Shown here: piece after piece, positions 4,779 to 61,712 of the stretch | Numbering within the stretch: position 1 is the first letter of the stretch | Layout of the letters: each line of letters starts with the position of its first letter | Origin: Phyllobacteriaceae bacterium | GTDB taxonomy: Bacteria; Pseudomonadota; Alphaproteobacteria; Rhizobiales; Rhizobiaceae | Direction of reading: 5' to 3' | Assembly (NCBI GenBank): GCA_024742765.1 | Contig: JANSXT010000023.1 | Coordinates: 1-64,000 of the forward strand | DNA: 64,000 bases | The notes under the pieces: generated by a model | What the model was told of the DNA's origin: nothing | Database searches by the model: none | Seen by the model: the letters and a program-made list of their open reading frames with translations, nothing else | Made by a program: the position numbers and the translations under genes

Positions 4779-6071
4779 TCACACACCCGGTCCGATGGTC
4801 TCGATCTTCGGGTCGCCGGCGCCGTGGATCTCCAGCCATTCGCGGTCGATATCCGGCAGGTCCTTATCGTCGATGGCCGCCTCGAACGATTGCAGGCGCT
4901 TGTGGATCGACAGCAGCTCGACGATCGTCGTCCACGAGTTCACCAGATACTGGAACGAGTTGGACACCTGCCCGAAGGCCGTTAGGACCTGCTGCAGGAC
5001 GCCGAAGGTAAAGCCCACGGCAGCGCCGCCGACAATGGTCGGGATGAGCAGCAACATGACGAATATGTTGTCGGCCTGCAGGTACAGGAACCGGAAAATG
5101 TTGAAGTACATATATTCGAGATACAGCCGAAAATAATTGCGGCGCACATCGCCGAACAGTTCACGCACGGTCGGAGGCTGCGCGCGTTCCTCGCGGTCCT
5201 CGCCATAGACCAGTTCTTTGCGGTAGGCCGCTTCGACACGCTGGTTCTTGAACTCCAGACCCGGCAGCCGGATCCCGGCGAGCGCCAGCATGCCGGTTCC
5301 GAAGATCGACCAGACGATGGCCGCCGTAAACAAGGGCGCGGGAATGGCGCCGACAAGCGGCAGTTCGGTGACATATTCGGACAAGGCCCAAAGAACAGGC
5401 AAAAAGGCGATCAGCGTCATTACCGAATCGATGGCCGCCACGCCGAGATTTTCCGTGATGCCGGCAAAACGCATCGTGTCTTCCTGGACGCGCTGGGACG
5501 CGCCTTCGATGTGACGCACCTGCTTCCAGCGCGCCATGTAATAGTCGTTCATCGCCGTGCGCCAGCGGAACACATAGTGGCTGGTGAAGAAGCGCACGCC
5601 GACGCCGATGAAAATCGCCATGAACGCCAGTTGCGCGAACACCAGCAAAAGGCTGAACAGATCGGTCTGGGTGACCGTGGAACCCTCGGTGAGCGCGTCC
5701 TGCACTCCGTCGAAGAAGGGCCGCCGCCAATTGTTGACCGCGACCGAGACCTGAACGCCGTAATAGGTGACGAACAGGATCAGGGCCGAGCCGAGGATGG
5801 ACCACAATTCCCAAGGGTGCTTGGCGCGGCGATGCCAGAAGGCATAGAAAATCGCCACGGCGATGACGTAGTAGACGTAGAACCAGAGAAATTCCGGCGT
5901 TGTGAAATGGCCAAGGCCAATGACCGGGCCCGCTTCGGGATCAGGCGTTCCCAGGCCGATTAACGCGCCCCACTGGCTCGCACCGGCATACCAGGCGACC
6001 ATGACAATGACGGTCCAGACCAAGGCGGAGATGAAAAACAGCTTGGGTTGCGGGAAGAAGGATTTGAACAA
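4779..6071 (-). CDS. BacA/SbmA-family peptide transporter
   Basis: Inner-membrane transporter of the SbmA/BacA family, known to import proline-rich peptides and related compounds and needed by rhizobia in hosts. Of 430 residues, the N-terminal three quarters hold about seven hydrophobic segments. Family blocks include WRRPFFDGVQDAL, FRWRTAMNDYYMARWK, EGASQRVQEDTMRF and the C-terminal SWTTIVELLSIHKRLQSFE. It has no ATPase domain, separating it from the longer BclA type. The start is TTG at 6071, preceded by GAGAGG at about 9 nt; no upstream ATG is available. It converges with the methyltransferase, the stops being 3 bp apart. Confidence 0.9.
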   Translation of the reverse strand: MFKSFFPQPKLFFISALVWTVIVMVAWYAGASQWGALIGLGTPDPEAGPVIGLGHFTTPEFLWFYVYYVIAVAIFYAFWHRRAKHPWELWSILGSALILFVTYYGVQVSVAVNNWRRPFFDGVQDALTEGSTVTQTDLFSLLLVFAQLAFMAIFIGVGVRFFTSHYVFRWRTAMNDYYMARWKQVRHIEGASQRVQEDTMRFAGITENLGVAAIDSVMTLIAFLPVLWALSEYVTELPLVGAIPAPLFTAAIVWSIFGTGMLALAGIRLPGLEFKNQRVEAAYRKELVYGEDREERAQPPTVRELFGDVRRNYFRLYLEYMYFNIFRFLYLQADNIFVMLLLIPTIVGGAAVGFTFGVLQQVLTAFGQVSNSFQYLVNSWTTIVELLSIHKRLQSFEAAIDDKDLPDIDREWLEIHGAGDPKIETIGPGV

Positions 6072-34281: not shown

Positions 34282-35514
34282 ATGGCCGACACAGCGCCGA
34301 ATGTGGGACAGACGCCCGAAACCGCCCGCGCCCGGCCGGCACGGCTGAACTGGGAGGATCCGTTTCTCATCGAGGACCAGTTGACCGACGAGGAACGGAT
34401 GATCCGCGACAGCGCGGCCGCCTATTGCCGGGAAAGGCTGGCATCGCGCGTGGTCGAGGCCAACCGGCACGAAGTGTTCCACCGCGAAATCATGACCGAG
34501 ATGGGCGAACTGGGCCTGCTCGGTTCGACGATCCCAGAAGAGTATGGCGGCGTCGGCGCCAACTATGTCGGCTACGGTCTGGTCGCCCGCGAGGTCGAGC
34601 GCATCGATTCGGGCTATCGCTCGGCCCTTTCGGTCCAGTCCAGCCTCGTCATGCATCCGATCTTCGCCTATGGCACCGATGCGCAGCGGTCCAAATATCT
34701 GCCAAGGCTGGCAAGCGGAGAATGGGTGGGCTGCTTCGGCCTGACCGAGCCCGATCATGGCTCCGACCCCGGCGGCATGACCACCCGCGCCAAGCCGGTC
34801 GATGGCGGTTATCGGCTGTCGGGCGCCAAGAACTGGATCACCAACAGCCCGATCGCCGATGTGTTCGTGGTCTGGGCCAAGTCCGACGCGCACGACGGCA
34901 AGATCAAGGGGTTCGTTCTGGAACGCGGAATGGACGGTCTGGAAGCGCCGAAGATCGACGGCAAGTTCAGCCTGCGCGCCTCGACCACGGGCATGATCCA
35001 GATGGACGAGTTCTTCGTGCCCGAGGACAATCTGCTGCCGCACGCCGAGGGCCTGGCCGGCCCGTTCGGCTGCCTCAACCGCGCCCGCTACGGCATCGCC
35101 TGGGGCGCGATGGGCGCCGCCGAGGCCTGCTGGTTCGCCGCGCGCGCCTACACGATGGACCGCAAGCAGTTCGGCAAGCCGCTTGCCGCCACCCAGCTCA
35201 TCCAGAAGAAGCTGGCCGACATGCAGACCGATATCAGCCTTGGGCTTCTTGGCGCGCTCAGGCTTGGCCGGATGATCGACGATCACACGGCTTCCGCCGA
35301 ACTGATCAGCCTGATGAAACGGAACAATTGCGGCAGGGCGCTGGCGATCGCGCGCGAGGCCCGCGACATGCATGGCGGCAACGGCATTTCAGACGAATAT
35401 GGCGTCATCCGGCACGTGATGAACCTTGAAGCGGTCAACACCTATGAGGGCACGCACGACGTGCATGCGCTGATCCTCGGTCGTGGCCAGACCGGCCTGC
35501 AGGCGTTTCAGTGA
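34282..35514 (+). CDS. gcdH: Glutaryl-CoA dehydrogenase
   Basis: 410 residues, the size of GcdH. Family features are [22 protein letters not shown] at the N-terminus, [53 protein letters not shown], and the catalytic Glu in [16 protein letters not shown]. It oxidatively decarboxylates glutaryl-CoA to crotonyl-CoA. It is divergent from the anthraniloyl-CoA operon and 3 bp upstream of a FadJ-like fusion, consistent with glutaryl-CoA as the end product of ring cleavage. Confidence 0.92.
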
Positions 35515-35517
35515 ACC

Positions 35518-37467
35518 ATGGCCATCACCCTTGAACGGGACGGCGATTGCGCCGTCGTCATTATCGACAATCCGCCGGTCAATGCCGCGTCACACGCCGT
35601 CCGCCAGGGGCTGATGGATGCCGTCACCACCTGCGACGCCGACCCGGCCATATCCGCCGTCATCCTGCGCTGCGCGGGCCGGACGTTCGTCGCCGGCGCC
35701 GACATCCGCGAGTTGGGCCAGCCGCCGAAGGAACCGCATCTGCCAGATGTGGTCAGCGCAATCGAGACAGCCGACACGCCATGGATCGCCGCGATCCACG
35801 GCACCGCCCTTGGCGGCGGGCTCGAACTGGCGATGGCCTGCCGCGCGCGGGTCGCCGATGCAAACGCAAAGCTCGGATTGCCGGAAGTCAATCTCGGCCT
35901 GATCCCCGGCGCCGGCGGCACGGTGCGGCTGCCGCGCCTTGTTGACGCTGAGACCGCATTGACGATGGTCGCCGGCGGCAAGCCGGTCGGTGCGGCCGAG
36001 GCCCATCGCGCCGGGTTGGTCGAGGGGGTCGACGAAGGCGATCTCCTCACCGCGGCAAAGGAGTTGGCGCGATCGATGACCGGCGAAGAACCGCGGACTC
36101 TCGGACGTCCCATCCGACAGCCGGCGGATGCGGACGCGTTTGCCGCGCAGAAAGCCAAAACGATCGCCAAAGCGCGCGGCCAGCATTCGATCAATGCGGC
36201 GGTCGAGGCCGTCGCGCGGGCGCTCGAACTGCCGGCCGATGAGGCATTGGGCGCCGAGCGGGACGCCTTTCTCGCCCTCAAGGCTTCCGAACAGTCGGCG
36301 GCGTTGCGGCACATCTTCATGGCCGAGCGGGCAACCCTGTCCGATCCGCGCTGCAAGGGCACGCCGCGTCCCTTCGACACGGCCGGCGTGGTCGGCGGCG
36401 GCACGATGGGCGCGGGTATCGCGGCGGCCTGTCTGTTGGCCGGACTGACCGTGATCCTGATCGAGCGTGACGGCCAAGCCGCTCAAGCCGCGCACGAACG
36501 CGTGTCGTCGATCCTCGATCAAAGCGCCAGGCGCGGCATCATCGATGAGACCACACGCGCCGATATCGGCAACCGCTTCTCAACCCATGACGATCACGGC
36601 CCGCTGTCGCAGGCCGATCTGGTTATCGAGGCGATCTTCGAGGAGATGGACGTCAAAAAGGCGGTGTTCGCGAGGCTGAACGCGGCCACAAGGCCCGATG
36701 CGATCCTTGCGACCAACACCTCCTATCTCGATGTCGACGCCATCGCGTCCACCGTCGCCGATCCATCCCGCGTCATCGGCCTGCACTTCTTTTCGCCGGC
36801 CCACATCATGAAGCTTCTGGAGATTGTCGTGCCGGCGAGCGTCGCCGACGATGTCGTGGCCACCGCAGCGGCCTTCGCCAAGCGCCTGAGGAAGACCGCC
36901 GTCCTGTCGGGCGTCTGCGACGGCTTCATCGCCAACCGCATCATGTCGGCCTATCGGCGGGAGGCCGACTATCTGATCGAGGACGGCGCCCTGCCGGCCG
37001 ATGTCGATCGCGCCATGCGCGATTTCGGCTTTCCCATCGGCGTCTTCGAAATGCAGGATCTGGCCGGCCTCGACATTGCCTGGGCGATGCGCAAGCGCCG
37101 CGCCAAGACGCGCGATCCGAATGAGCGCTATGTGGCGATCGCCGACGGGCTCTGCGAACAGGGCCGCTTCGGCCGCAAGACCGGCGCCGGCTGGTATCGC
37201 TATGAGGATGGAAAGCCCGTTGCCGACCCGGACGTGACCGCACTGATCGAGGCCGAGCGCGCCCGCAAGGGCATCGCGCCCGTCAGCCTGACGGACGAGG
37301 CGATCATGGACCGCATCCTGTCGGCCATGCAGAGCGAGGCGCAGGCGGTCCTCGATGAGGGCATTGCGTCCAAACCCGGCGACATCGATGTCGTCATGAC
37401 CAGCGGCTACGGCTTCCCGAGCTGGCGCGGCGGGCCGATGTTCATGAAGGCGCAGCAGGACACCTAG
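35518..37467 (+). CDS. Enoyl-CoA hydratase/3-hydroxyacyl-CoA dehydrogenase fusion (FadJ-like)
   Basis: 649 residues. Residues 1 to ~190 are crotonase ([44 protein letters not shown]). From about 285 there is an NAD-binding 3-hydroxyacyl-CoA dehydrogenase ([55 protein letters not shown]). It is somewhat shorter than FadB/FadJ (~715). It would take crotonyl-CoA from GcdH to acetoacetyl-CoA. No thiolase is adjacent. Confidence 0.92.
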
Positions 37468-37485
37468 AGCCAGACCTGAAGCGCG

Positions 37486-38706
37486 TCAGGTCACCCGGCC
37501 GCGCGCCCGATAGGCCGGATCGTCCCAAAGACGCTTGTCGAGCACATCGGCCAGGATATCGACGGCCGCCCGTACATCACCTTCATCAATGTAGAGCGGC
37601 GTGAAGCCGAACCGCATGATGTCCGGCGCGCGGAAGTCGCCGATCACATTGCGCGCGATCAGCGCCTGCATCGCCGCATAGCCGTGCTCAAAGGCGAACG
37701 AGACCTGGCTGCCGCGCTTGGCGGCATCGCGTGGGCTGGCCAGCGTCAGTTCCGGACATCGTGCCTCGACCTCGGCAATGAACGTCTCGCACAGCGCGAT
37801 GCTCGCCGCGCGCACATCGTCCATGTCGATATCGTCCCAGACCTTCAGCGCTTCGTCGAGCGCGGCGATCTGGATGATCGGCGGTGTGCCCACCCGCATC
37901 CGTTCGATGCCCGTGGCGGGCCGGTAGTGCGGTTCGAAGGCAAACGGTGCGTCATGGCCCAGCCAGCCGCTCAGCGCCGGCTGAACATCATCGACGATGT
38001 CCGGGCGGACATGGACGAAGGCCGGCGCGCCCGGCCCGCCATTGAGATATTTGTAGGTGCAGCCAACCGCGAACTCGGCCTTGCAGGCCGCCAGATCGAC
38101 CGGCACAGCGCCGGCGCTGTGGGCGAGATCCCAGATCATCACGGCGCCGGCCCGATGGGCCAGCTTCGTGATCGCATCCATGTCGTGCATGCGTCCGGTC
38201 CGGTAATCGACATGGGTGAGCATCACCGCTGCAACCTCATCGGTGATCGAGTCAACCACAGTTTCGGGATCGACAACGCGCAGTTCGTGCCCCTTGTCCA
38301 ACTGTCCGATCAGCCCCTCAGCCATATAGAGATCGGTCGGGAAGTTGCCGCTGTCGGACAGGATCACCCGTCGGTCCGGCCGCATGGCCAACGCCGCCGA
38401 CAAGGCCTGATGGACCTTGATGGAGAGCGTGTCGCCGAGCACGACGGAGCCTGGTGGCGCGCCGATCAGACGGCCGATCCGGTCGGCGACCCCGACCGGC
38501 TGCGCCATCCATCCATCGATGTTCCAGCCCTTGATCAGGTGTTCGCCCCATTCGTCGCCGACCATCGACGCGACGCGGCCCGGCACCGCACGCGGCAGCG
38601 GTCCGAGCGAATTGCCGTCCAGATAGATCATCCCGTCGGGCAGATGAAACCGCTCCTTAACGGGAAGCGTTGTCGCCGCGCTTTCGAGGTTCGTCGCTCC
38701 GCTCAC
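37486..38706 (-). CDS. kynU: Kynureninase
   Basis: 406-residue PLP enzyme splitting kynurenine into anthranilate and alanine. Landmarks: [49 protein letters not shown], and the Schiff-base Lys in [16 protein letters not shown]. The start is GTG at 38706, overlapping the kynA stop (GTGA), with a G-rich ribosome site just before; the longer frame from 38937 runs inside kynA and is rejected. Converges with the FadJ-like gene. Confidence 0.94.
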
Positions 38707-39536
38707 AATTGCCCCCTGACGTTCCACAATTCGGGAAACAGTTCGACCTCCAGCATCCGGCGCAGATATTTCACACCTGACGTGCCGCCGGTGCCGCGCT
38801 TGAAGCCGATGATCCGCTCGACAGTCGTGACATGGTTGAACCGCCAGCGCCGGAAATAGTCTTCCAGATCGACCAGCTTTTCCGCCAGCTCGTACATCGA
38901 CCAGTGCCTGCGCGGATCGGCATAGATTTCGGCCCATGCGGCCATCACAGCGTCATCGGCTCGGTGCGGCGCGTCCATGCGATAGATTTCGGGCGAAAGC
39001 TCCCGCCCCAGATGCTCGGACAATTGATCGAGTGCGACATGGTAGAGTGACTTGCGCGCCAATTCGGCGGTCAGCCTGGCATGCAGTTCGGGCCGATGTT
39101 CGTGCACCTTCATCATCGCCGGATTGCGGTTGCCGAGCACGAACTCGATCAGCCGGTACTGGTGCGACTGAAAGCCGGACGAGGCGCCGAGATCCTCGCG
39201 GAAGGCGGTATATTCGCTGGGCGTCATGGTGCGCAGCACGTCCCAGGCGCCGTTCAACTGCTCGAAGATGCGGGCGACGCGGGTCAGCATCTTGAAGACC
39301 GGTGGGAAATCGCCATCCGCCAACGCATCGCGCGCCGCGTTCAACTCATGCAGCGCCAGCCGCATCCAGAGTTCCGAGGTCTGATGCTGGATGATGAACA
39401 GCATCTCGTCATGGGCATCGGAGAGCGGGCTCTGCGCCGTCAGGATCGGATCGAGCGATAGATAGTCGCCATAGCTCATGTCGCGCGCAAACGATGTCTT
39501 GGCGCCGTCCTCGGTCGGATCATAGGCATCGGTCAA
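38703..39536 (-). CDS. kynA: Tryptophan 2,3-dioxygenase
   Basis: 277-residue heme dioxygenase opening the indole ring of Trp to N-formylkynurenine. Landmarks: [48 protein letters not shown], the heme-ligand region [14 protein letters not shown] and the substrate loop [15 protein letters not shown]. The only reasonable start is TTG at 39536 with GGAG about 9 nt upstream. It is coupled to kynU. Confidence 0.94.
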
Positions 39537-51032: not shown

Positions 51033-52688
51033 TCAAGGAGCCAAAAATCTCGCGTAAGCATGGCGTAAGCATCTCGCGAACGGTATGCACCCGTAGCTCA
51101 GCTGGATAGAGCGCCGCCCTCCGAAGGCGGAGGCCAGAGGTTCGAATCCTCTCGGGTGCGCCATATCGCATTTTTGACTGCATATTTCGGTTAAAGCCTT
51201 GAAGGGTAAGGCTAAATTTGGTGTTCGAAGTCCCTTGTTTCGGCAGTAGGGTAGAGGCTCCAAAAAGGCCAGTCTGAGGACTGTTTTCTTGAGAGCCAAG
51301 TCGGCGTTTTGCCAGATTTTCCAAGGGTTTGACAGAAATTGGAGGGCGTGTTCGAACGACTCCTCCAGCGTGTGCTTTGGCTGGCCTGCTTTTGACAGTT
51401 GTTCTTGGGCCAAGAGCTTTTCGCGTTCCAGTTTGGCGATACGCTTTTCATAGGCCCTGACGACCGAGTCGCTGCTCGCTTCGACGATGCGGTCGAGCAG
51501 TTGGTCGATCTGCTTTTCGGTTTTGGCGATCTGCGCTTTCAGCGTGTCTTTGGCCGCTGCTGCTTTGCCGAGGCGCAGGTTCCATGCGTCGTGGAACATG
51601 GCCTTCACGAGGCCAAACAAGCCCTGTGACGGTTCCAGACGCTTGAGCACGTCTTCGAATGCGCCTTCGAGGTCTTCGCGCTTGATGGACTTGCGATAGC
51701 TCACACAGCCCTTTGTCGCGCAAAGGTAATAGGGATATTTCTGTTTCTTGCCCTGCGACCAGCAGGCCGTCAGGGGCTTGTTGCAGTCGTCGCACAGGAT
51801 GAAGCCGCGCAGCGGGAAATCGGCGTTGATGTCCTTGCGGGCCGGAGCCTTGGCCGTGCCCTTGAGGCGCGCTTGAATCTTCTCGAAGGTTGCGAAGTTG
51901 ATCAGGCCGTCATGCTGGCCTTTTCGCAAGCTGACGCCCCAATTCGGCGCTTCGACATAGCCCGCATAGACGGGGCGCTGCAAAAGCTCGGCAATGCGCT
52001 GGTTGCGGATTTCGCCGTTTGGCAGGTCTTTCGGGAAGGAGGGTTGCCGCTCAAGGAAGCGCTTCACTTCCACCTGCGTTTCGAAGCGGCCTGAGGCGTA
52101 GCCTTCAAGGGCCTCCTGAATGGCGGATGCGTTGGGTTCATCGCGCACCAACAGCTTGCCGTGACCGCTCTTACGTTCATAGCGGTAGCCGACAGGCGCC
52201 TGAAACACCCAGTAGCCGTTTTGCACCCGTGCCCGCATGCGGTTGATGGTTTGCTCGCCGTTCTTCTGGCGCTGGTGTTGCGACACCGATGCCAGTAGGT
52301 TTTCGACAAGCTGCGAGTCGGAGTCTTCGCCGAACTCGATGGACGGGCTGACCAGTACGCCGCCCGCTTCGTCGATCTTTACGCGCAATTCAAAGTGCGC
52401 CATCAGGCCGCGCGCAAGGCGGCTGATATCGTCGATGATCACCGCCTGCGGCGCTTTGCGGTTGGCCTTCAAATGCGCCAGCATCGCCTGCATACCGGGG
52501 CGTGTCGTCAGGCTTCCCGACGTATCGTCGCTAAAGACCTCCACAACCTCATAGCCCTTGTACTTGGCAAACTCCCGGCAGCGGGTTTCTTGGGAAGCGA
52601 GGCCGTCACCGCGCACCGTTTGCTTCGCACTCGATACGCGGCAATAGATGACGGCTTGCTTGATATTTTTGTGTTCTTCGTTGTTCAT
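51033..52688 (-). CDS. Large serine recombinase (integrase), C-terminus read through the tRNA
   Basis: 551 residues. The resolvase catalytic domain starts AVIYCRVSSAKQTVRGDG with the nucleophile Ser, then VIIDDISRLARGL. The recombinase domain follows (GYWVFQAPVGYRYERK), a zinc ribbon (CDDCNKPLTAC...CATKGC) and a long coiled coil (about 400-470). The ATG at 52688 was chosen; an in-frame run to 52808 lies in the previous gene. The last ~45 codons are unusual: they are antisense to the complete tRNA-Arg (MAHPRGFEPLASAFGG...) and to the spacer beyond it. This indicates that the gene end was swapped on integration. Confidence 0.92.
   Translation of the reverse strand: MNNEEHKNIKQAVIYCRVSSAKQTVRGDGLASQETRCREFAKYKGYEVVEVFSDDTSGSLTTRPGMQAMLAHLKANRKAPQAVIIDDISRLARGLMAHFELRVKIDEAGGVLVSPSIEFGEDSDSQLVENLLASVSQHQRQKNGEQTINRMRARVQNGYWVFQAPVGYRYERKSGHGKLLVRDEPNASAIQEALEGYASGRFETQVEVKRFLERQPSFPKDLPNGEIRNQRIAELLQRPVYAGYVEAPNWGVSLRKGQHDGLINFATFEKIQARLKGTAKAPARKDINADFPLRGFILCDDCNKPLTACWSQGKKQKYPYYLCATKGCVSYRKSIKREDLEGAFEDVLKRLEPSQGLFGLVKAMFHDAWNLRLGKAAAAKDTLKAQIAKTEKQIDQLLDRIVEASSDSVVRAYEKRIAKLEREKLLAQEQLSKAGQPKHTLEESFEHALQFLSNPWKIWQNADLALKKTVLRLAFLEPLPYCRNKGLRTPNLALPFKALTEICSQKCDMAHPRGFEPLASAFGGRRSIQLSYGCIPFARCLRHAYARFLAP
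51052..51072. repeat. Tandem GCGTAAGCAT repeat between the tRNA copies
   Basis: Two exact GCGTAAGCAT units (51052-51061 and 51063-51072) separated by one base, bounded by CTCGCG-like sequence on both sides, 15 bp before the intact tRNA. Could be protein-binding arm sites of a former attachment site. Confidence 0.5.
51087..51163 (+). tRNA. tRNA-Arg (anticodon CCG)
   Basis: 77 nt including an encoded CCA. Acceptor GCACCCG pairs with CGGGTGC; D arm AGCTC...GAGC; anticodon stem CCGCC/GGCGG around loop CTCCGAA giving anticodon CCG; T arm AGAGG-TTCGAAT-CCTCT. All arms pair. It reads CGG arginine codons. It marks the left end of the mobile region. Confidence 0.96.
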
Positions 52689-52701
52689 TTTTCTTGTGAC
52701 C

Positions 52702-53028
52702 TTATGGGTGAGGTTCTCCTTTTTTGTCGTTACTTTCGTTGTCTTCAGATGATAGCAGATTGAAGTTTGTACTTGTGCTGAAAGTGGGGATTTCGGGGTT
52801 TTGTCCACCTGCTTCCTGTGTGGGATGCGTGCCGAATCCGAGTTCTACGAAGCCTGTGACGATGTCCCAGAGGGCTTGCAGGAACTCGGCTTTCTGATCC
52901 TCGGTCATGTCCATGTCTTTGAGGAATTCGCGGTAGTTTGCGAAGTTCACGGTGACTTCGGGTGCGGCGTAGGGAGCGAAGTGTTCGCGCAGGTCTTTGC
53001 CTGTCTTTGTCTCGCTGTAGTGCTTCAT
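52702..53028 (-). CDS. Small protein of unknown function upstream of the recombinase
   Basis: 108 residues. The ATG at 53028 follows GAGGGAGAAAGC; alternatives at 53043 and 53064 lack such a site. The N-terminal half is helical (KHYSETKTGKDLREHFAPYA, ANYREFLKDMDMTEDQKAEFLQALWDIV); the C-terminal 40 residues are polar and Ser/Asn-rich, probably disordered. It ends 13 bp before the recombinase, so it may be an accessory or directionality factor. No family recognised. Confidence 0.65.
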   Translation of the reverse strand: MKHYSETKTGKDLREHFAPYAAPEVTVNFANYREFLKDMDMTEDQKAEFLQALWDIVTGFVELGFGTHPTQEAGGQNPEIPTFSTSTNFNLLSSEDNESNDKKGEPHP

Positions 53029-53727: not shown

Positions 53728-55401
53728 TCACTCCGTTCCGGCGTTCAGGCCGTAGGACAGCGCGAACAGCGGTTTGACTTGCGGATAGGCACCTTCGACG
53801 GGGTTGGCTTCGGCCCATCCGCCCCAAGGGCTGACGAACCAGAAGGGGACGCGCACGGCCCGAACCGGGCGCAGACCCTTCACCAGCAGCAGTTGCTCGT
53901 GCGGCTGCATCAGCAGGATGTCTTCCGGGCGCATCAGCGGCTGGCCCGTCTCGGACAGGCTTTCGCCGATATCGTCGTCATCCGTGCGGCCCAGATTGTG
54001 GCTGCGCGTCTTCGCCGTCCTCTGGCCCAGCGTGTCGGACAGCAGCTTCGCGGATTCGAACGTGTTGACCGCGAAGAACTGCTTCACCTCGGCTTGCGAC
54101 TGGATCGTCTTCGCCGTGTGCGGGCCGTAAATCCGCACCAGTTCGGCAAACTCCTGCACATGCATCCAAACCCGGACACCCAGTCCCGGCAGCGCCGTCA
54201 GGCTTTCCGCCAGACCCGACAGCTTGCCGAGATTGGCGAACTCATCGAGCATGAACAGCGCCTTGCCTTGCTTTGGCGACCGCGCCACGCTTGTGATCGT
54301 CTGGTTGACAATCAAGCCGAGCGCCGCACCGTGCGAGGCGATGCGATCCTGCGGGAAAGCCAGATAGATGCTGACATCGCCGCCTTTCACATCGGCCAGA
54401 TCGATATCCGACCCACCAACGGCGTCGGCCAGAAAGTCACCCGGCTGGTAGATGTCCAGCGCCTGCACAGCCCCGGCGCGGAAGTCGGCAAACTGGTCGG
54501 CATTGTCGGCCATCTGGACGGCGAGATCGTCGCCAAGATCAGCCAGCAGGCCGCCGAGCAAATCGCTCCGTTGCATGGCGTCCACCGTCATCGCCAACCG
54601 TCTCGGGTTGGCCACGTGCCGCCACATCTCCGGCAAGGTGCAGAGTTGCGGCTTGTGCAGCGCCAGATACATCAGGACTCCGCGCAGGATCGCCCGCGAA
54701 CCGTCACGGAAGAAGCGGTTGCGCGCATCTTCCGGCTCCGGTAGCAACTGCAAGGCGACGACCTTGACCTCACCCGCCAGGCCGCGCTGAAGCACCGGAT
54801 CACCCGCCAGCCGGATTACTTCCTGCAACGGGTTGATCCGGTCTTGCGGCAGGCCATGCAGGCCCCACGGATTAAGCACGACGACCTTGTGGCCGAACCG
54901 CTCCGCGCGGTGTTTGGCGGTGACGGCAGCAAGCTCACCCTTGGGATCGGTAACAACGACCGCACCCGGATAATGCAGCAGGTTCGGGATCACGGCATTG
55001 ATACCCTTGCCCTGCCGCGCAGGCGCACAGGTCAGCAGATGGGCTTTGCCATTGTAGAAAAGCGGCTCACCATCCAGCAGGCCGAGATACAGGCCATTTG
55101 GATTGTCCATCCCGGCAGCGTCGCACTCTTCCAGCGATGCGAAGTCAGCCGTACCGAAAACACCGGATGTTTGCGCCGCCGCCTTACGCTGTTCACGCCG
55201 CCGATACGAACCGTACAGACCCGCCACGCCGCCCGCCGTCGTCAGGAACCCGAACCCGCCAAGCAGGCCCAGATAAAGTTGACCGCCCGCATCCGGCGCG
55301 GTTCCGGTCAATGAAGGCCACCCCGCCGACAACGCCAGCATCGACACGCCAAGCAGAAGCATGCCGGTCGGGGAACCCTGTTTTTGATTGTTGCCAGCCA
55401 T
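53728..55401 (-). CDS. Type IV coupling protein (VirD4/TraG family)
   Basis: 557 residues. Two N-terminal hydrophobic segments (GMLLLGVSMLALSAGWPSL, YLGLLGGFGFLTTAGGVAGLYG) are followed by the Walker A-like CAPARQGKGINAVIPN near 130, VVTDPKGELAAVTAKHRAERFGHKV, Walker B KALFMLDEFANLGKL near 385, and VKQFFAVNTFESAKLLSDTLG. It links DNA-relaxase complexes to a mating channel. Its presence shows that the element can be conjugative or mobilised. Confidence 0.92.
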   Translation of the reverse strand: MAGNNQKQGSPTGMLLLGVSMLALSAGWPSLTGTAPDAGGQLYLGLLGGFGFLTTAGGVAGLYGSYRRREQRKAAAQTSGVFGTADFASLEECDAAGMDNPNGLYLGLLDGEPLFYNGKAHLLTCAPARQGKGINAVIPNLLHYPGAVVVTDPKGELAAVTAKHRAERFGHKVVVLNPWGLHGLPQDRINPLQEVIRLAGDPVLQRGLAGEVKVVALQLLPEPEDARNRFFRDGSRAILRGVLMYLALHKPQLCTLPEMWRHVANPRRLAMTVDAMQRSDLLGGLLADLGDDLAVQMADNADQFADFRAGAVQALDIYQPGDFLADAVGGSDIDLADVKGGDVSIYLAFPQDRIASHGAALGLIVNQTITSVARSPKQGKALFMLDEFANLGKLSGLAESLTALPGLGVRVWMHVQEFAELVRIYGPHTAKTIQSQAEVKQFFAVNTFESAKLLSDTLGQRTAKTRSHNLGRTDDDDIGESLSETGQPLMRPEDILLMQPHEQLLLVKGLRPVRAVRVPFWFVSPWGGWAEANPVEGAYPQVKPLFALSYGLNAGTE

Positions 55402-56827: not shown

Positions 56828-57556
56828 ATGACGACCGCGAAAACCGAATTCCAACGAAGCGCCACACCGGGCGAAGACCTCTCCCGCCGTCTCGCCTACC
56901 TTGCCACACAGGACAACGGCTCAGTGATGACGGGCGGTTTCGCCAAGGCACCGGGCCTCAACGGCACCGATGACGACCAACCGTCAAAACGCCAATCCAT
57001 CACCGCCATGGAATTCCTCACCCAACAGGAACAAATCCGCCAAGACCAGATCGCCCGCCTCAACAGCCAATTCGACACCCTCGAACAAGCCGCCCGCGAC
57101 GCCCTGATCGACGCCGAAAACAACCTCGCCACCATCCTCAGCAACGCCAACCGCGCCCTCGATGGCCGCGCCGTCTTCAAGGACAAGGACGGCAACATCC
57201 GCGATGAGGACGGCCAGATTGTCGATGTGGCTGATGTCGATATGTCTGATTGGGATGCAAGCGGCTCGACTTGGGAACAGAAAGCGCAAGCGACAGAACG
57301 CTTAACCGCCGCAACCGAAATCTACGAAAATGTGACGGCAATAGGTGACCGCCTTGATTCCGGCGATCTGGAAGACAGCGATCTGTCCGCACTTGAAAGC
57401 GATCTCGACGATATTGAGAGCGACCTGAACACGTTTTTGACGGCATCAGATGCACTGGACGCCGACAAACCAACGGCGTTGGCCGACGACAAGCCGCAAA
57501 TGGCGTCGACTGACATGACGGCAACAAATGCCGTTTCGCATATGAAGCCCCTCTAA
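56828..57556 (+). CDS. Acidic coiled-coil protein of unknown function
   Basis: 242 residues. An N-terminal polar region is followed by a coiled coil (about 60-115: EFLTQQEQIRQDQIARLNSQ, FDTLEQAARDALIDAENNLA), a short Asp/Gly-rich turn segment (KDKDGNIRDEDGQIVDV) and a second helical acidic repeat (LDSGDLEDSDLSALESDLDD). No signal peptide. The DKDGNIRDEDG part resembles a calcium-binding loop but a second is absent. Unrecognised. Confidence 0.7.
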   Translation: MTTAKTEFQRSATPGEDLSRRLAYLATQDNGSVMTGGFAKAPGLNGTDDDQPSKRQSITAMEFLTQQEQIRQDQIARLNSQFDTLEQAARDALIDAENNLATILSNANRALDGRAVFKDKDGNIRDEDGQIVDVADVDMSDWDASGSTWEQKAQATERLTAATEIYENVTAIGDRLDSGDLEDSDLSALESDLDDIESDLNTFLTASDALDADKPTALADDKPQMASTDMTATNAVSHMKPL

Positions 57557-57563
57557 GTCGCGC

Positions 57564-57893
57564 TCAATCCGCCGCGCACGTTCGGTTCATCAAGACGAAC
57601 AAGACAGGATGCGCTTGGCGGTCTTTGAAATGATTGAGCGCCTGCACAATCTCCTCCGGGCCACTACCGCCCCCAAAAAACCAGTCCATGATACAGGACG
57701 ACCTCTCGGGATCACCTTGCTGGTGCGCGATGAAAGCAGCCATCTCGACGGCCCCAGTCAGATAACCGTTCCGCTCATCCTCGCCCATCTTCGTCATCAA
57801 ATCTTCGCCCGTCAGCGCCGCCGCCGAGCTGGCCGACAGCGCCAAAGCCAACAAAGCCGCGGCATAGCGGCCAGCAAAAGAGTTCTTGAACAT
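57564..57893 (-). CDS. Small secreted protein (Rap1a-like pattern)
   Basis: 109 residues, signal peptide MFKNSFAGRYAAALLALALS with cleavage near SSAAA/LTGED. The mature 80 residues have GYLTGAVEMAAFI, two Cys (SSCIMDWFF and RTC) and FKDRQAHPVLFVLMNR, reminiscent of the Rap1a/Tai immunity-type fold, but the match is by eye only. Convergent with the coiled-coil gene. One of the inverted 26-bp sites lies 20 bp before its start. Confidence 0.6.
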   Translation of the reverse strand: MFKNSFAGRYAAALLALALSASSAAALTGEDLMTKMGEDERNGYLTGAVEMAAFIAHQQGDPERSSCIMDWFFGGGSGPEEIVQALNHFKDRQAHPVLFVLMNRTCAAD

Positions 57894-57912
57894 CAGATTT
57901 ACTCACATCTGA

Positions 57913-57938
57913 CAGTCAAAAGGGAACCCTTTTGTCAA
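57913..57938. repeat. Hin/Pin-like crossover site, left copy
   Basis: Two 12-bp half-sites in inverted order around a central AA: CAGTCAAAAGGG-AA-CCCTTTTGTCAA. The 12+2+12 plan and the TCAAAA core match DNA-invertase crossover sites (hix/gix type). It is the reverse complement of the copy at 58040 over at least 21 of 22 inner bases. Confidence 0.65.
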
Positions 57939-57946
57939 TAAAACTG

Positions 57947-57975
57947 TGGACGCAGATTCTCTACTTTGGTAGAAT
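57947..57975 (+). promoter_or_regulatory. Promoter inside the segment between inverted sites
   Basis: TGGACG (57947-57952), 17 bp, then TAGAAT (57970-57975). As drawn it points right, toward the serine recombinase at 58144. If the segment inverts it would point at the secreted-protein gene ending at 57564. Confidence 0.45.
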
Positions 57976-57981
57976 CAATAG

Positions 57982-58100
57982 TGAAGCTGAGCGCGGTGAA
58001 TTGACAATTTCTACTCCCACACCGCACCCGTCCACCGTACGGTCAAAAGGGTTCCCTTTTGACAAGGCGCACACAGCGCCCAAAACGGCGCTCAGCTTCA
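57982..58100. repeat. 13-bp perfect inverted repeat around the right crossover site
   Basis: TGAAGCTGAGCGC (57982-57994) and its exact complement GCGCTCAGCTTCA (58088-58100). The right arm lies outside the proposed invertible segment, the left arm inside it. Confidence 0.6.
58040..58065. repeat. Hin/Pin-like crossover site, right copy (inverted)
   Basis: CGGTCAAAAGGG-TT-CCCTTTTGACAA: the same half-sites around a central TT, so this copy is in opposite orientation to the one at 57913. The inner 22 bp (58042-58063) are a perfect palindrome. It lies 78 bp before the recombinase start. Confidence 0.65.
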
Positions 58101-58143
58101 TTTCAACCCTGACCAAGGCGCCCCGCGCCGCCACCGCAAAACC

Positions 58144-58620
58144 ATGAATATCGGCTACGCCCGCGTCTCCACCGACGAACAAAATCTTAACCTCCAAATC
58201 GACGCTCTCACAAGGGCAGGCTGCACCCAAATCTTCAAAGACGAAGGCCTCTCCGCCACCGCCAAAAACCGCCCCCAATTCACCGCCGCCCTCAACGCCC
58301 TCAAACCCGGCGACCGCCTCGTTATCTGGAAAATGGACCGCGCCTTCCGCTCCCTCCTGGACGCCCTCAAAGTCCTCGAAGATCTCGAAAAACGCGGCAA
58401 CGCCTTCCACTCCCTAACCGAAGCCATAGACACACAAACCCCCATGGGACGCTTCGCCTACCAAATCATCAACGCCTTTGGCGAACTCGAACGGGCGCTG
58501 ATCTCAGAACGGACGAAGGCGGGGATGAAGGCGGCGAAGGACAGAGGGGTTCATGTGGGGCGGCCAGCAACGCGGCGCGCAGATCGGACGTCCTCGCAAG
58601 CTCTCAGTTCCCCAGATTGA
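58144..58620 (+). CDS. Small serine recombinase (DNA invertase/resolvase), C-terminus frameshifted
   Basis: 158 residues. The N-terminal catalytic domain is complete: MNIGYARVSTDEQNLNLQID with the catalytic Ser, FKDEGLSATAKNRPQF, GDRLVIWKMDRAFRS, HSLTEAIDTQTPMGRFAYQ and ERALISERTKAG. It is closest in pattern to Hin/Pin invertases. The frame then leaves the normal GRPRKL-HTH end and reads GRPATRRADRTSSQ to a stop. The HTH is encoded in the +1 frame (next entry), so the gene looks broken or frameshifted. Confidence 0.85.
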   Translation: MNIGYARVSTDEQNLNLQIDALTRAGCTQIFKDEGLSATAKNRPQFTAALNALKPGDRLVIWKMDRAFRSLLDALKVLEDLEKRGNAFHSLTEAIDTQTPMGRFAYQIINAFGELERALISERTKAGMKAAKDRGVHVGRPATRRADRTSSQALSSPD

Positions 58621-58780
58621 GTGGGCGATGTTCGAGCTTCAACTCGGCATCCATACGCCAGCAGAAATCGCGGCAGCCCTCAGCGTTTCGGAGCGCACGC
58701 TAAGACGAGCATTGCCCAAGTCCGTTTTCCTGCACCCACAATCGATCTTTCAGCAACCATTTGAGGAGAAAACTGTATGA
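58553..58780 (+). pseudogene. Detached HTH domain of the serine recombinase (+1 frame)
   Basis: About 75 codons overlapping the recombinase end. The sequence AQIGRPRKLSVPQIEWAMFELQLGIHTPAEIAAALSVSERTLRRAL is the usual hinge and DNA-binding helix-turn-helix of resolvase/invertase proteins. An ATG exists at 58553 but no ribosome site. Either a one-base change near 58555-58590 split the gene, or a ribosomal frameshift joins the parts. Confidence 0.65.
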
Positions 58781-58806
58781 GATTGGGAACGACCTACCCA
58801 TACTGA
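58777..58806 (+). CDS. Nine-codon leader ORF (MRLGTTYPY)
   Basis: ATG at 58777 is 8 nt after GAGGAG, the best ribosome site in the area. Nine codons end in TGA, which overlaps the ATG of the next gene (TGATG). Its ATG in turn overlaps the stop of the HTH fragment (ATGA). It may serve translational coupling. Confidence 0.35.
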   Translation: MRLGTTYPY

Positions 58807-59045
58807 TGACCGTCAGGAGCGTCGCCAGAACCCGCAGAATAGCCGCGAAATGGGGCCGCTTGGAAGTCGTCCGGCTGTCCGACGCCGAACTCTACAACGC
58901 CCTTGCCTTCGTGCATCGCGCGAACTGGCTGGACTACAACGAAGCCATGTTCGTCGATCTGGAAGCGGCGCATCGGCAAATCACGTCCGAAGCGAAACGC
59001 TATGTCGCGATTCGCTGTTTCAATCCAGATGAGAATTTTCTCTGA
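58806..59045 (+). CDS. Small hypothetical protein
   Basis: 79 residues from ATG 58806: a basic N-terminus (MTVRSVARTRRIAAKWGRLE) then a helical stretch (RLSDAELYNALAFVHRANWL, DYNEAMFVDLEAAHRQIT). No own ribosome site; it may depend on the leader ORF. A TTG start at 58761 would add 15 residues. Unrecognised. Confidence 0.5.
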   Translation: MTVRSVARTRRIAAKWGRLEVVRLSDAELYNALAFVHRANWLDYNEAMFVDLEAAHRQITSEAKRYVAIRCFNPDENFL

Positions 59046-59099
59046 ACCGCGGGGTGATAAAAGCGCCAAACTTAACAATCTGCTACGGTACCTGTATCA

Positions 59100-59945
59100 G
59101 TGAAGCCGACTAACCCCCGTACTGTTTGCTACAGAGTACTTGATGCGATTGGATTGCCGACAATGAACCCATTGTACGCTGCCGCTGCTGCCAACGAGTT
59201 TCCTGATACATCGGCATTTCGCAAGCTCGTCCAAGCGCAGTTCAAGAACGGAAGCGTCAATCGGTATCGGAACTACCTGCCGCCACTTGTTCCCGTCGAG
59301 ATTTTCCGGCCCGCCGACCCGCATATGCATTACGAGGCAATGCGTCTAGGCGACCGAGGCGACCTAACGGAAGAGCAAGAAGAAGCAATACGCGTGCAAT
59401 CCGAAGTCAAAGAGGCTCTACGGCACAAAGATATACAAGATATATTAGACAACCATGCAGAAAAAGTCCTTAGCGAAATTGAAAAGAATAAGAAGATAGA
59501 TATAACCATCATCAACAATTCAGCGAAGGAATCAGAGCACCTTATTTCAAAGAAATCATTCAATGTTATTGTTCGAGGGATAATTGTTCTCATAATGTAT
59601 TCAATGATTCCAGTTGCCTCTCCGGGAAAAGAAAATCAAAAGCCTGCACAAGTGGATATCGCGGCTGAAACTGAGTTTTCTGGCCTCAGTAACCAGTCCG
59701 TGTTTGTCGTCAGAACGCAATCTCCTGACAGTCGGTTACGCGTTCGAGACCGTCCATCTGTGGATGAATCAAATGTAATAGGTCACTTGTCAAACGGACA
59801 ACTCGTTGAAGTAGTCGAAAGACGAGGTTATATGAGAGAGATTAAATGCGAAGGCGTTAGCATGGCTAGCTATGATGGACCATGCTATGTTCATTCCGAA
59901 TACTTGCTGAAACTAATCGTTCCGCAGGGCGATGTCTACGACTGA
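59100..59945 (+). CDS. Membrane protein with C-terminal SH3-like domain
   Basis: 281 residues from a GTG at 59100 (ATG at 59163 is an alternative). The N-terminal ~130 residues are charged and helical, one transmembrane segment follows (NVIVRGIIVLIMYSMIPVAS near 157), and the last ~80 residues match a bacterial SH3 domain (SRLRVRDRPSVDESNVIGHL, NGQLVEVVERRGYMREI). Base composition is much AT-richer than all neighbours, pointing to recent separate acquisition. Function unknown. Confidence 0.65.
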   Translation: MKPTNPRTVCYRVLDAIGLPTMNPLYAAAAANEFPDTSAFRKLVQAQFKNGSVNRYRNYLPPLVPVEIFRPADPHMHYEAMRLGDRGDLTEEQEEAIRVQSEVKEALRHKDIQDILDNHAEKVLSEIEKNKKIDITIINNSAKESEHLISKKSFNVIVRGIIVLIMYSMIPVASPGKENQKPAQVDIAAETEFSGLSNQSVFVVRTQSPDSRLRVRDRPSVDESNVIGHLSNGQLVEVVERRGYMREIKCEGVSMASYDGPCYVHSEYLLKLIVPQGDVYD

Positions 59946-60104
59946 CATTATCGCCGTGCCTGCGACGGTAAAAGCCGCAATATCGAAACTGACTTGTAGC
60001 AAGCTATCTTGACCGTTCATGATATGGATGAGCGGCAGGCCAATAGCGCCTACAGCACCAAATTGAACTGCATTCTTGGCAACAACATTAAATAATCTAT
60101 TCAT
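59913..60104 (-). CDS. Small two-helix membrane protein
   Basis: 63 residues, hydrophobic in two spans (AVQFGAVGAIGLPLIHIM and FDIAAFTVAGTAIMSVVDIAL). It converges with and overlaps the end of the previous gene by 33 bp. AT-rich like that gene. Small membrane proteins in such positions can be holin-, toxin- or immunity-like; no evidence decides. Confidence 0.45.
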   Translation of the reverse strand: MNRLFNVVAKNAVQFGAVGAIGLPLIHIMNGQDSLLQVSFDIAAFTVAGTAIMSVVDIALRND

Positions 60105-60497
60105 CTATCGTCTCGCGTATTTGATAATATAAAATCATTTCGATATATGATCTTGTAAATATATACAAGAAAAAAATGGAATAATGTCGCCCAAATAAAA
60201 AAGTCATAGATGGATAGAATATCGGTATTTATCTTTTTGGCACACGAATTGAATTGTAGACAGCATTTTTGATTCTCGGTGACTCTGGGAAACGCGCGAA
60301 CTTTGTCATTGTTTTGCGCGCGCTAATTCTCTGAATCCTGAGATCGCGCTCGGCGCTCGCAAGATGTGTTTTGTAGTACAAAACCACCTTGGCAAGGGGA
60401 CCCGCTGCGCGTCCCCGTTGCATCCCCCCGGCCTGTGGCTCCGTCAGGGCATTGAACCCATCCTGAGCCATTAGAACGTATCGCCGTTCAACCACTC
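60105..60497. other. Gap: AT-rich leader then GC-rich non-coding stretch
   Basis: The first ~120 bp are strongly AT-rich with several TATAAT-like hexamers. The rest turns GC-rich. A leftward frame from 60612 to 60229 exists but has no family features or ribosome site. GGGGAC/GTCCCC hairpin arms lie near 60397-60417. No gene supported. Confidence 0.4.
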
Positions 60498-60521
60498 GCA
60501 GGGAGACTTCGTTCTCCCTGC
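60498..60521. repeat. 9-bp perfect hairpin
   Basis: GCAGGGAGA pairs with TCTCCCTGC across a 6-nt loop (CTTCGT). No T-tract on either side. Could be a structured RNA, a transfer-origin hairpin or a protein site. Confidence 0.5.
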
Positions 60522-60563
60522 ACCCATCGACTTGGGCGGCGTGCCTGCCCCCAAGACCCCAGC

Positions 60564-60800: not shown

Positions 60801-61712
60801 TCACGATTGTGGGGACGTTTTGGGACCAGTGCACGCAGCAACGAATTGATGCCCAAATCGCGTGAGACTGAAGTTCAGGGAAGGTACCGCGCCGTAGTCG
60901 CTGACCAACCTAGCGTCGGCGATATCCTGATCTTGCTGTTCGCTCATTGAAACAATGATGTCATTAAGCCTGTCGGCCAATCGGTCGGGATCGACATATC
61001 CCTTTATCTCGCTAAAATGTGGTTCCAGATCCCATTTGTGAATCCGGTCAAATGTGACGTCCGATCTTTGAGCAAGCCCCTGACGAACGAGATTCTGGAT
61101 CGCAAACAAAACTCGTTCTTCGGTCACCCCAGACATGATCGCATCGACGACCGCCTTCGTCTTGTTCGTCAGCGTGGATTGATCCTCCTCCATCAGCTTG
61201 CGGGACTGCCCTTCCACATCTTCGGTTGCTTCGAAGACCTGCATCGGCGGCCAGCGTCGATTGTAGTCACTCAGGGCAGCGTCTATCTCCTGCATGGCTT
61301 CGAGGATGCGCGCTTCGAGCGGCGTCAAGTTTGCCAAGACCGAAACAATGGCGCGCTTGTCGTGCACGTCGCTGGTTAGCGAGTTGGCCAGCAGGCCTGC
61401 GTAAAGCGCTTGTATTTCAGGTTCGTCGCTCCGCGACATGCCTTCAAATAAGGCATAGATTTCTCCGGTTGGTAGGGAATGACACCTGTCCAGCGGTATT
61501 CCCTTCTCTTTCAAGAAATCTGCCGTCTTTGCCGCTGAACTAATGAGATTACGCGTGCGCCATTCGCGCACGCGATCTCCAATGATGGCGCCGAGCAAGT
61601 CCTTTGAAAACCCGACAAGGCCGGAGGCCGTTTCACCCGCCGCCACCTTGATCACTTCTGCTGCCGCTTCATCGACTGCTGGCGCGATACCGATCTTCTG
61701 CATTTTCGTCAT
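60801..61712 (-). CDS. Abi-alpha (DUF4393)-like protein, putative phage defence
   Basis: 303 residues. The N-terminal half follows the DUF4393 plan: ASGLVGFSKDLLGAIIGDRVREWRTRNLI, TADFLKEKGIPLDRCHSLPTGEIYALFEGMS and EIQALYAGLLANSLTSD, then VSVLANLTPLEARILEAMQ. DUF4393 is the Abi-alpha family, linked to abortive infection. The C-terminal half (ILFAIQNLVRQGLAQRS-type) looks like a winged helix. A lone defence-type gene between repeat blocks of an integrative element fits a cargo gene. Activity is inferred. Confidence 0.72.
   Translation of the reverse strand: MTKMQKIGIAPAVDEAAAEVIKVAAGETASGLVGFSKDLLGAIIGDRVREWRTRNLISSAAKTADFLKEKGIPLDRCHSLPTGEIYALFEGMSRSDEPEIQALYAGLLANSLTSDVHDKRAIVSVLANLTPLEARILEAMQEIDAALSDYNRRWPPMQVFEATEDVEGQSRKLMEEDQSTLTNKTKAVVDAIMSGVTEERVLFAIQNLVRQGLAQRSDVTFDRIHKWDLEPHFSEIKGYVDPDRLADRLNDIIVSMSEQQDQDIADARLVSDYGAVPSLNFSLTRFGHQFVAACTGPKTSPQS

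Follow-up and report, generated by a model that had tools for sequence, protein, structure and literature searches.

The 64,000-nucleotide stretch of Phyllobacteriaceae DNA analysed here (hereafter, the window) carries two palindromes in inverted orientation beside a gene for a Hin/Gin-like small serine recombinase. We consider it likely that this recombinase flips the segment between its two sites and thereby redirects a promoter between its own gene and a divergent neighbour, gene X. In the mechanism we propose, the two palindromes are the recombination sites of the adjacent enzyme, and a recombinase dimer would bind each of them. The dimers would meet directly through a loop of ~9–14 helical turns, cut the 2-bp centres and rotate; the centres match in inverted alignment only (AA versus TT), so the segment of ~100–130 bp would be flipped. 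This segment lies between the recombinase gene and a divergent gene, often one predicted to encode an exported or membrane protein, and its inversion would turn a promoter from the recombinase towards the neighbouring gene or back. Comparison of sequences strongly supports inversion for the family to which the window pair belongs, in which paired sites have complementary cores and phased spacing and in which relatives carry naturally inverted segments with exchanged half-sites.

The putative far recombination site occupies positions 57913..57938 (core 57917–57934, centre AA at 57925–57926) and the putative near site positions 58040..58065 (core 58044–58061, centre TT at 58052–58053). The far core reads CAAAAGGG-AA-CCCTTTTG and the near core CAAAAGGG-TT-CCCTTTTG; each is a near-perfect palindrome, and the two start 127 bp apart. 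Since the cores are symmetric, their direction is given by the centre only, and AA against TT places the sites in inverted orientation. A preliminary description of the window had proposed exactly this, two 26-bp sites with a 12+2+12 layout and AA/TT centres, and it was borne out both by palindrome matching and by inverted-repeat analysis, in which the two sites form a 20-nt inverted repeat that is 100% complementary. The likeness to hix and gix sites suggested at the same time holds for the 12+2+12 layout, but not for the inner triplets, which are GGG/CCC at the window sites and ACC/GGT in cixL of P7, the site whose letters were compared. When up to 3 mismatches were allowed, the pattern TCAAAAGGGNNCCCTTTTG matched four times in the window (the two palindromes on both strands) against 0.09 matches expected, and none of 100 shuffles reached four (maximum 2). 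With up to 2 mismatches to the 18-letter core, the two window sites were the only places in the 3.95-Mb genome. Between the two centres lies a segment of 125 bp (57927..58051), which is predicted to invert on the basis of site geometry and of homologous segments that are mutually inverted in other loci. Invertons are defined by inverted repeats of 10–40 nt (PMC11892184); the window pair falls within this range and encloses an intergenic segment, as expected of a promoter inverton.

The adjacent recombinase is encoded on the forward strand in two pieces. The catalytic part (58144..58620), whose frame ends early, is an open reading frame with a PF00239 match (E 1.4e-43), and its residues 1–141 match those of the nearest relative, locus L079, at 86% identity; the catalytic domain proper spans 58144–58566. 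The DNA-binding part (58553..58780) lies in another frame and is 79% identical to L079 residues 128–200; the two halves overlap in homology, so that one stretch is present twice. The catalytic part is a Resolvase domain with a YxRVST motif and is closest to the invertases: two DNA-invertase chains were the top PDB matches, the best solved relative being the DNA-invertase 4m6f (E 2.1e-38), which we take to be Gin, and identity was 50% to Gin of phage SfMu and 49% to Cin of P7. No single frame of the window recombinase holds an intact C-terminal DNA-binding part. In the family, recombinase open reading frames of at least 180 aa were found in 36 of 43 cases among the matches listed, including L079 (200 aa). 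A search of the window's genome for a second recombinase that might act in trans returned the window recombinase as the only match. Because its gene is split over two frames, the window copy may be locked: unless the split is a sequencing error, the enzyme would be broken and the switch fixed with its promoter facing the broken gene.

To place the window pair among its relatives, an exact site scan with a free centre was used, which gave at least 115 loci in genome contigs and 2 in viral contigs. Relatives of the window recombinase were present in 39 of 119 loci among the matches listed (the window's two overlapping entries included), and pattern searches in genomes close to that of the window contributed 12 more recombinase loci, for a total of 51 among the matches listed. 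Left out were L001, a duplicate of L002, as well as L082, L116, L057 and the second recombinase copies of L025 and L109, which have no scorable near site or upstream DNA. Sites were scored by their 16 arm bases alone, and the centres were not used to choose them. A second site lay 96–139 bp upstream of the near site in 42 of the 47 scored loci (among the matches listed); at the far-site threshold of 12/16 arm bases, which was our own choice, five loci fell below, namely L161 (11) and L056, L080, L088 and L090 (7–9). By the same threshold and at 70–160 bp, a second site was present at 30 of the 36 scanned loci that have a recombinase no more than 600 bp away and at 6 of the 81 that do not, again among the matches listed. 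Eighty viral loci carry relatives of one such recombinase, one of them with only ~100 bp of upstream DNA, and three have a site within 450 bp upstream; these three are the best matches, at 48–69% identity versus 41–45% for the rest.

In pattern searches among the window's relatives, allowing up to 2 mismatches gave matches in 27 of 61 genomes, many of them single and chance-like. With up to 1 mismatch, the pattern occurred in 6 of 385 genomes of the class and in 27 of 397 genomes of the order, and an exact pattern of slightly looser form occurred in 11 of 394 genomes of the taxonomic family. Each of these counts includes the window's own genome. When 4.25 kb of window DNA was compared with 20 relatives, no match extended over the sites or the segment, and G038 and G042 matched the start of the recombinase gene only.

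If the two sites of a pair recombine with each other, their centres should agree. Under arms-only scoring, the centres were reverse-complementary in 40 of 42 site pairs among the matches listed. Five pairs were added by hand: L188–L190, selected through blastn, plus L156 and L184, neither of which has a confirmed recombinase (L156 gave no tblastn hit). With these the count was 45 of 47 among the matches listed, the matching cores that characterize an invertase. After removal of seven near-duplicates, 38 of 40 pairs were complementary; in 20,000 permutations the mean was 10.1 and the highest count 21. The agreement runs through the centre pairs AA/TT, TT/AA, GA/TC, TC/GA, GT/AC, AC/GT, AT/AT and TA/TA. 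In the two exceptions, L099 and L160, the centres are not complementary in the scored register, and by eye they read GT/AC if the far site is shifted by one base. Three further viral pairs, with spacings of 118, 129 and 150 bp, are all TT/AA. Six pairs lack a detected recombinase; judged by eye, the centres agree in four of them and disagree in L105 and L113. Hin is unable to ligate in the inverted orientation once one of the hix sites carries a single altered core base (PMC4817059). That the centres still match when inverted, although their letters have changed several times, is what exchange between the two sites predicts, and neither operators nor the subsites of a res site need any such match.

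The distance between paired sites is also constrained. Spacings fall into clusters of 96–99, 105–107, 115–119, 124–129 and 136–139 bp, with a vector strength R of 0.73 at a period of 10.5 bp (n = 40, a set that does not contain the three further viral pairs). The best R over periods of 10–11 bp was reached by none of 5000 uniform sets, and without the 115–119 cluster R was 0.66 (n = 17, p ~6e-4); the loci are related, so that the counts here and above are not independent and the p-values are optimistic.

Segments that have inverted in nature were found among the relatives. The roseobacter plasmid loci of Roseivivax marinus (L188; NZ_CP090156.1), Sulfitobacter pontiacus (L189; AP027377.1) and Phaeobacter piscinae (L190; NZ_CP010686.1) share the same arrangement, with recombinase and near flank colinear, and by eye gene X of L188 resembles gene X of L190. 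The L188 segment aligned with those of L190 and L189 in reverse (z = 16.0 and 14.2) and not forward (z = 1.7 and 1.2), and the L110 segment likewise aligned in reverse with those of L136 and L154 (z = 6.0 and 6.7), so that both orientations, as expected of an inverton, are represented in each of these groups. When the L190 segment was inverted computationally at the site centres, the near site of L188 was obtained exactly and its far site bar one outer base. The same operation on L110 gave the near site of L136 exactly and left two differences in the L136 far site; the near site of L154 is without the moved half-site variant. That half-site variants moved with the segment places the crossover at the centre, where a serine recombinase would be expected to make it. 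In a multiple alignment, in which the orientations of L189, L190 and L110 were set by hand from the pairwise scores, 11 of 13 Rhodobacterales segments lay in one orientation, suggesting that flipping is rare, biased or slow. The window segment has the same orientation as that of its nearest relative, L079 (forward z 8.9, reverse 2.8), and among the relatives searched none carried an inverted copy of it. The comparison of strains suggested in the preliminary description has therefore recovered both orientations among relatives, and the inversion claimed there stands for the family, through covarying complementary cores and natural inversions, but not for the window segment itself, for which one orientation was found. 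Taken as a separate part of the explanation, we regard the existence of an inversion module as very probable.

The second part of the explanation concerns the promoter. A σ70-like promoter, TGGACG-17-TAGAAT with TG ahead of the −10 element, lies at 57947..57975 on the forward strand, and the same hexamers and 17-bp spacer occur in L079. It was the only match in a σ70 scan of 57850–58200 (shuffle mean 0.2), in agreement with the earlier placement of this promoter between the sites and facing the recombinase. Its score reached significance in the window (p 0.02) and was a borderline case in L079 (p 0.08). A dyad, GATTCT...AGAATC, read by eye at 57955..57976 across the −10 region and also present in L079, is a possible site for an accessory protein.

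On the other side of the segment, gene X (57564..57893, reverse strand) is an open reading frame for a small protein of 109 aa that is likely secreted, given its hydrophobic N-terminus. No Pfam family scored above the cutoff for it; homologues adjoin the far site in L079 (59% identity) and L041 (39%). Its start codon is 23 bp from the far-site core. Where a start lies as close as this, the gene X promoter must overlap the far site or sit in the segment, which is the chief reason for proposing a switch. As a control for such neighbours, 1720 random places in the same loci were used. A divergent open reading frame of at least 45 aa was present no more than 250 bp from the far site in 40 of the 43 loci and at 86% of the random places, so that the mere presence of one says little. 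Closeness and hydrophobicity were strengthened by the control: a divergent start lay no more than 45 bp from the far site in 27 of the 43 loci versus 550 of 1720 random places (32%), and a hydrophobic N-terminal stretch was found in 28 of 40 divergent open reading frames (70%) versus 271 of 1484 at random places (18%). Inversion should change the upstream signals of these divergent genes, and from this we infer promoter switching.

The strongest competitor to the proposed switch accepts that inversion is real and holds that no gene is switched by it, the flipping being a by-product of a recombinase and sites that are retained together for some other reason, for instance on plasmids or integrated elements. 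Across 50 segments there was no enrichment of σ70 promoters (median p 0.52, with 12% under 0.1), which is in keeping with this explanation, as are the dominance of one orientation in the Rhodobacterales and the finding that gene X is not a single protein family, the divergent open reading frames beside far sites belonging to several unrelated ones. It is also favoured by a promoter-like stretch that 7 of the 43 loci have between the near site and the recombinase, outside the segment; ahead of some Rhodobacterales recombinases it is ambiguous whether this stretch is promoter or coding sequence. Against a by-product stand the enrichment of close divergent starts and of hydrophobic N-termini described above and the promoter hexamers common to the window and L079. 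In addition, L136, L154, L156, L196 and L197 have a TTG-type −35 element separated by 17 bp from a −10 element that is preceded by TG, facing the recombinase, and L110 has the same type of promoter in the opposite direction, none of the six being significant alone. We consider the by-product explanation unlikely. The promoter switch of the preliminary description fared unevenly, and direct promoter evidence for it is thin: the promoter is significant in the window and borderline in L079 but has no family-wide enrichment, and switching is a plausible reading of its position. Taken separately, we hold the promoter switch to be somewhat more probable than its absence.

Two further explanations, both raised in the preliminary description, deny inversion. 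If the palindromes were two subsites of one res site, the enzyme would resolve plasmid dimers or cointegrates. The enzymes do belong to the small serine group, and siblings that lack a second site (L179; less clearly, L176 and L177; and the metagenome-assembled loci L080 and L088) have, by eye, one palindrome plus half-site-like repeats near the start codon, a layout that resembles the res sites of Sin and beta. At a res site, strand exchange is generally confined to copies of site I; the accessory sites are not known to be its exchange partners and need no matching core. Resolution therefore needs no match between subsites, yet the centres of the family covary and match in inverted alignment only, and the segment has been inverted in nature with exchange of half-sites at the centre. 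The two sites thus behave as partners of each other and not as site I and an accessory site, and a res site as the sole role of the pair is very improbable. Equally improbable as a sole role is a pair of plain operators, at which recombinase dimers would bridge both sites in a repression loop with no strand exchange: the phased spacing and the position around a likely promoter region would suit it, and autorepression may well coexist with inversion, but complementary central dinucleotides are not expected for operator binding and operators do not invert DNA.

The siblings L176, L177 and L179 were also noted in their own right. They are plasmid recombinases (two plasmids typed conjugative, one mobilizable) beside ImmA/PIN, ABC-three-component or Swt1-HEPN genes. 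By eye, L179 has one perfect palindrome ~98 bp upstream and L176 and L177 have weaker ones, and all three have CGCAAAAACCTCRTGCAAAAAG-like repeats at the start codon. This looks like a different, res-like layout.

To return to inversion by paired sites, we compared the family with known systems. Hin/hix, Gin/gix and Cin/cix share with it the recombinase subfamily, inverted 12+2+12 palindromes and a recombinase gene beside the segment. They differ in scale, the C-segment of P7 being annotated at ~4 kb (35363–39360) and the family segment measuring ~100–130 bp. In a midpoint-rooted tree of 58 recombinases, the owners of inverted pairs formed one group of 13 rows that includes the window (support 97/96), a second of 22 rows (100/99) and 10 scattered rows, and Gin and Cin fell elsewhere, with weakly supported neighbours. 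Two well-supported groups and scattered rows indicate that the arrangement is old or arose more than once. Activation of Hin comes from an enhancer bound by Fis, which lies ~100 bp from one of the sites and has 47 bp between the centres of its Fis sites (PMC3798978). The loop of the family seems too short to hold a two-site Fis enhancer plus two loops. This raises a mechanistic question, as wild-type Hin needs its Fis-bound enhancer in a looped complex and the inter-site loop of the family is about as short as the loop between hixL and the enhancer.

Small regulatory segments, often beside surface genes, are likewise flipped by a serine recombinase in the Mpi system of Bacteroides fragilis and in gut promoter invertons. 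Mpi is described as a single master enzyme that serves at least thirteen dispersed regions (PMC5903667), whereas each family segment has its own adjacent recombinase, and the hosts of the family are Pseudomonadota plus one metagenome-assembled genome labelled Myxococcota (L031, in the tree). The flagellar switch of Clostridioides difficile (RecV) is another short invertible regulatory segment between inverted repeats, with 154 bp between 21-bp repeats (PMC5386303); it was first spotted, as here, by reverse-complement alignment of strains, and it is flipped by a tyrosine recombinase (PMC5903667). The Sin, beta and Tn3-type resolvases are related enzymes that also have phased sites upstream of the recombinase gene; in the family, the two sites appear to exchange with each other, in inverted alignment. 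Taken together, the family would act as a Hin/Gin inversion system with the anatomy of a promoter inverton, set apart by its very small, phased loop.

Hin/Gin inversion and promoter invertons are known; what would be new is the miniature form of a serine-recombinase promoter inverton. In its broadest version, the proposal is of widespread, self-contained mini-invertons on plasmids, integrated elements and chromosomes, in which a Hin-type recombinase with sites 96–150 bp apart on one helix face would act by direct synapsis through a loop of 9–14 turns, without a Fis enhancer, on a flipped promoter segment common to the recombinase and to varied genes for exported proteins. We put the chances of this version at about even. 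If it is true, environmental bacteria may possess an entire class of phase switches that has escaped notice owing to the small size of its members, barely 150 bp each. No description of the motif or family was found in the open-licence PMC literature, a result that, given the partial coverage, is weak evidence of absence, and four motif strings occurred there only in works unrelated by title. The matched central dinucleotides also provide a test of inversion that draws on sequence alone and is applicable to other recombinase-site pairs.

Several further features were seen in the window and its relatives. A 16-nt inverted repeat (94%) has one arm inside the segment (57982–57997) and the other outside it (58085–58100), and a repeat as long was found in none of 200 shuffles of the region; its helix could be formed in the present orientation only. 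The predicted leader RNA (57982–58143) has a fold z of −5.3. As the L079 leader has no unusual fold (z −0.7, with only the outer 6 pairs predicted), the leader structure was not built upon, and Rfam gave no match within 57500–60500.

In the Rhodobacterales loci L012, L023, L040, L049, L059, L061, L083 and L188–L190, TTTTCCACAG or TTATCCACAG occurs in mid-segment. It resembles a DnaA box and might be bound by a protein that helps the small loop to bend. L067 has a complete, matching site pair at 4835–4969 with a segment like that of L101 (by eye) and no recombinase detected alongside, and is apparently an orphaned switch. Many Rhizobium contigs (L008, L016, L019, L039, L045, L140, L170 and others) carry one longer palindrome, GGCCAAAAGGG-WW-CCCTTTTGGCC, with no recombinase detected in the stretch examined; L140 and L170 come from genomes of the window's taxonomic family.

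The surroundings of the window pair include, beyond metabolic genes, a large serine recombinase (51036–52808) and a TraG/VirD4-like coupling protein (53731–55401), and an Abi_alpha gene lies at 60804–61712. Together these genes suggest an integrated conjugative element. A stretch at ~60357–60530 recurs, whole or in part, in G002, G003 (90%), G004, G037 and G042, and is probably a repeat family of the window's lineage.
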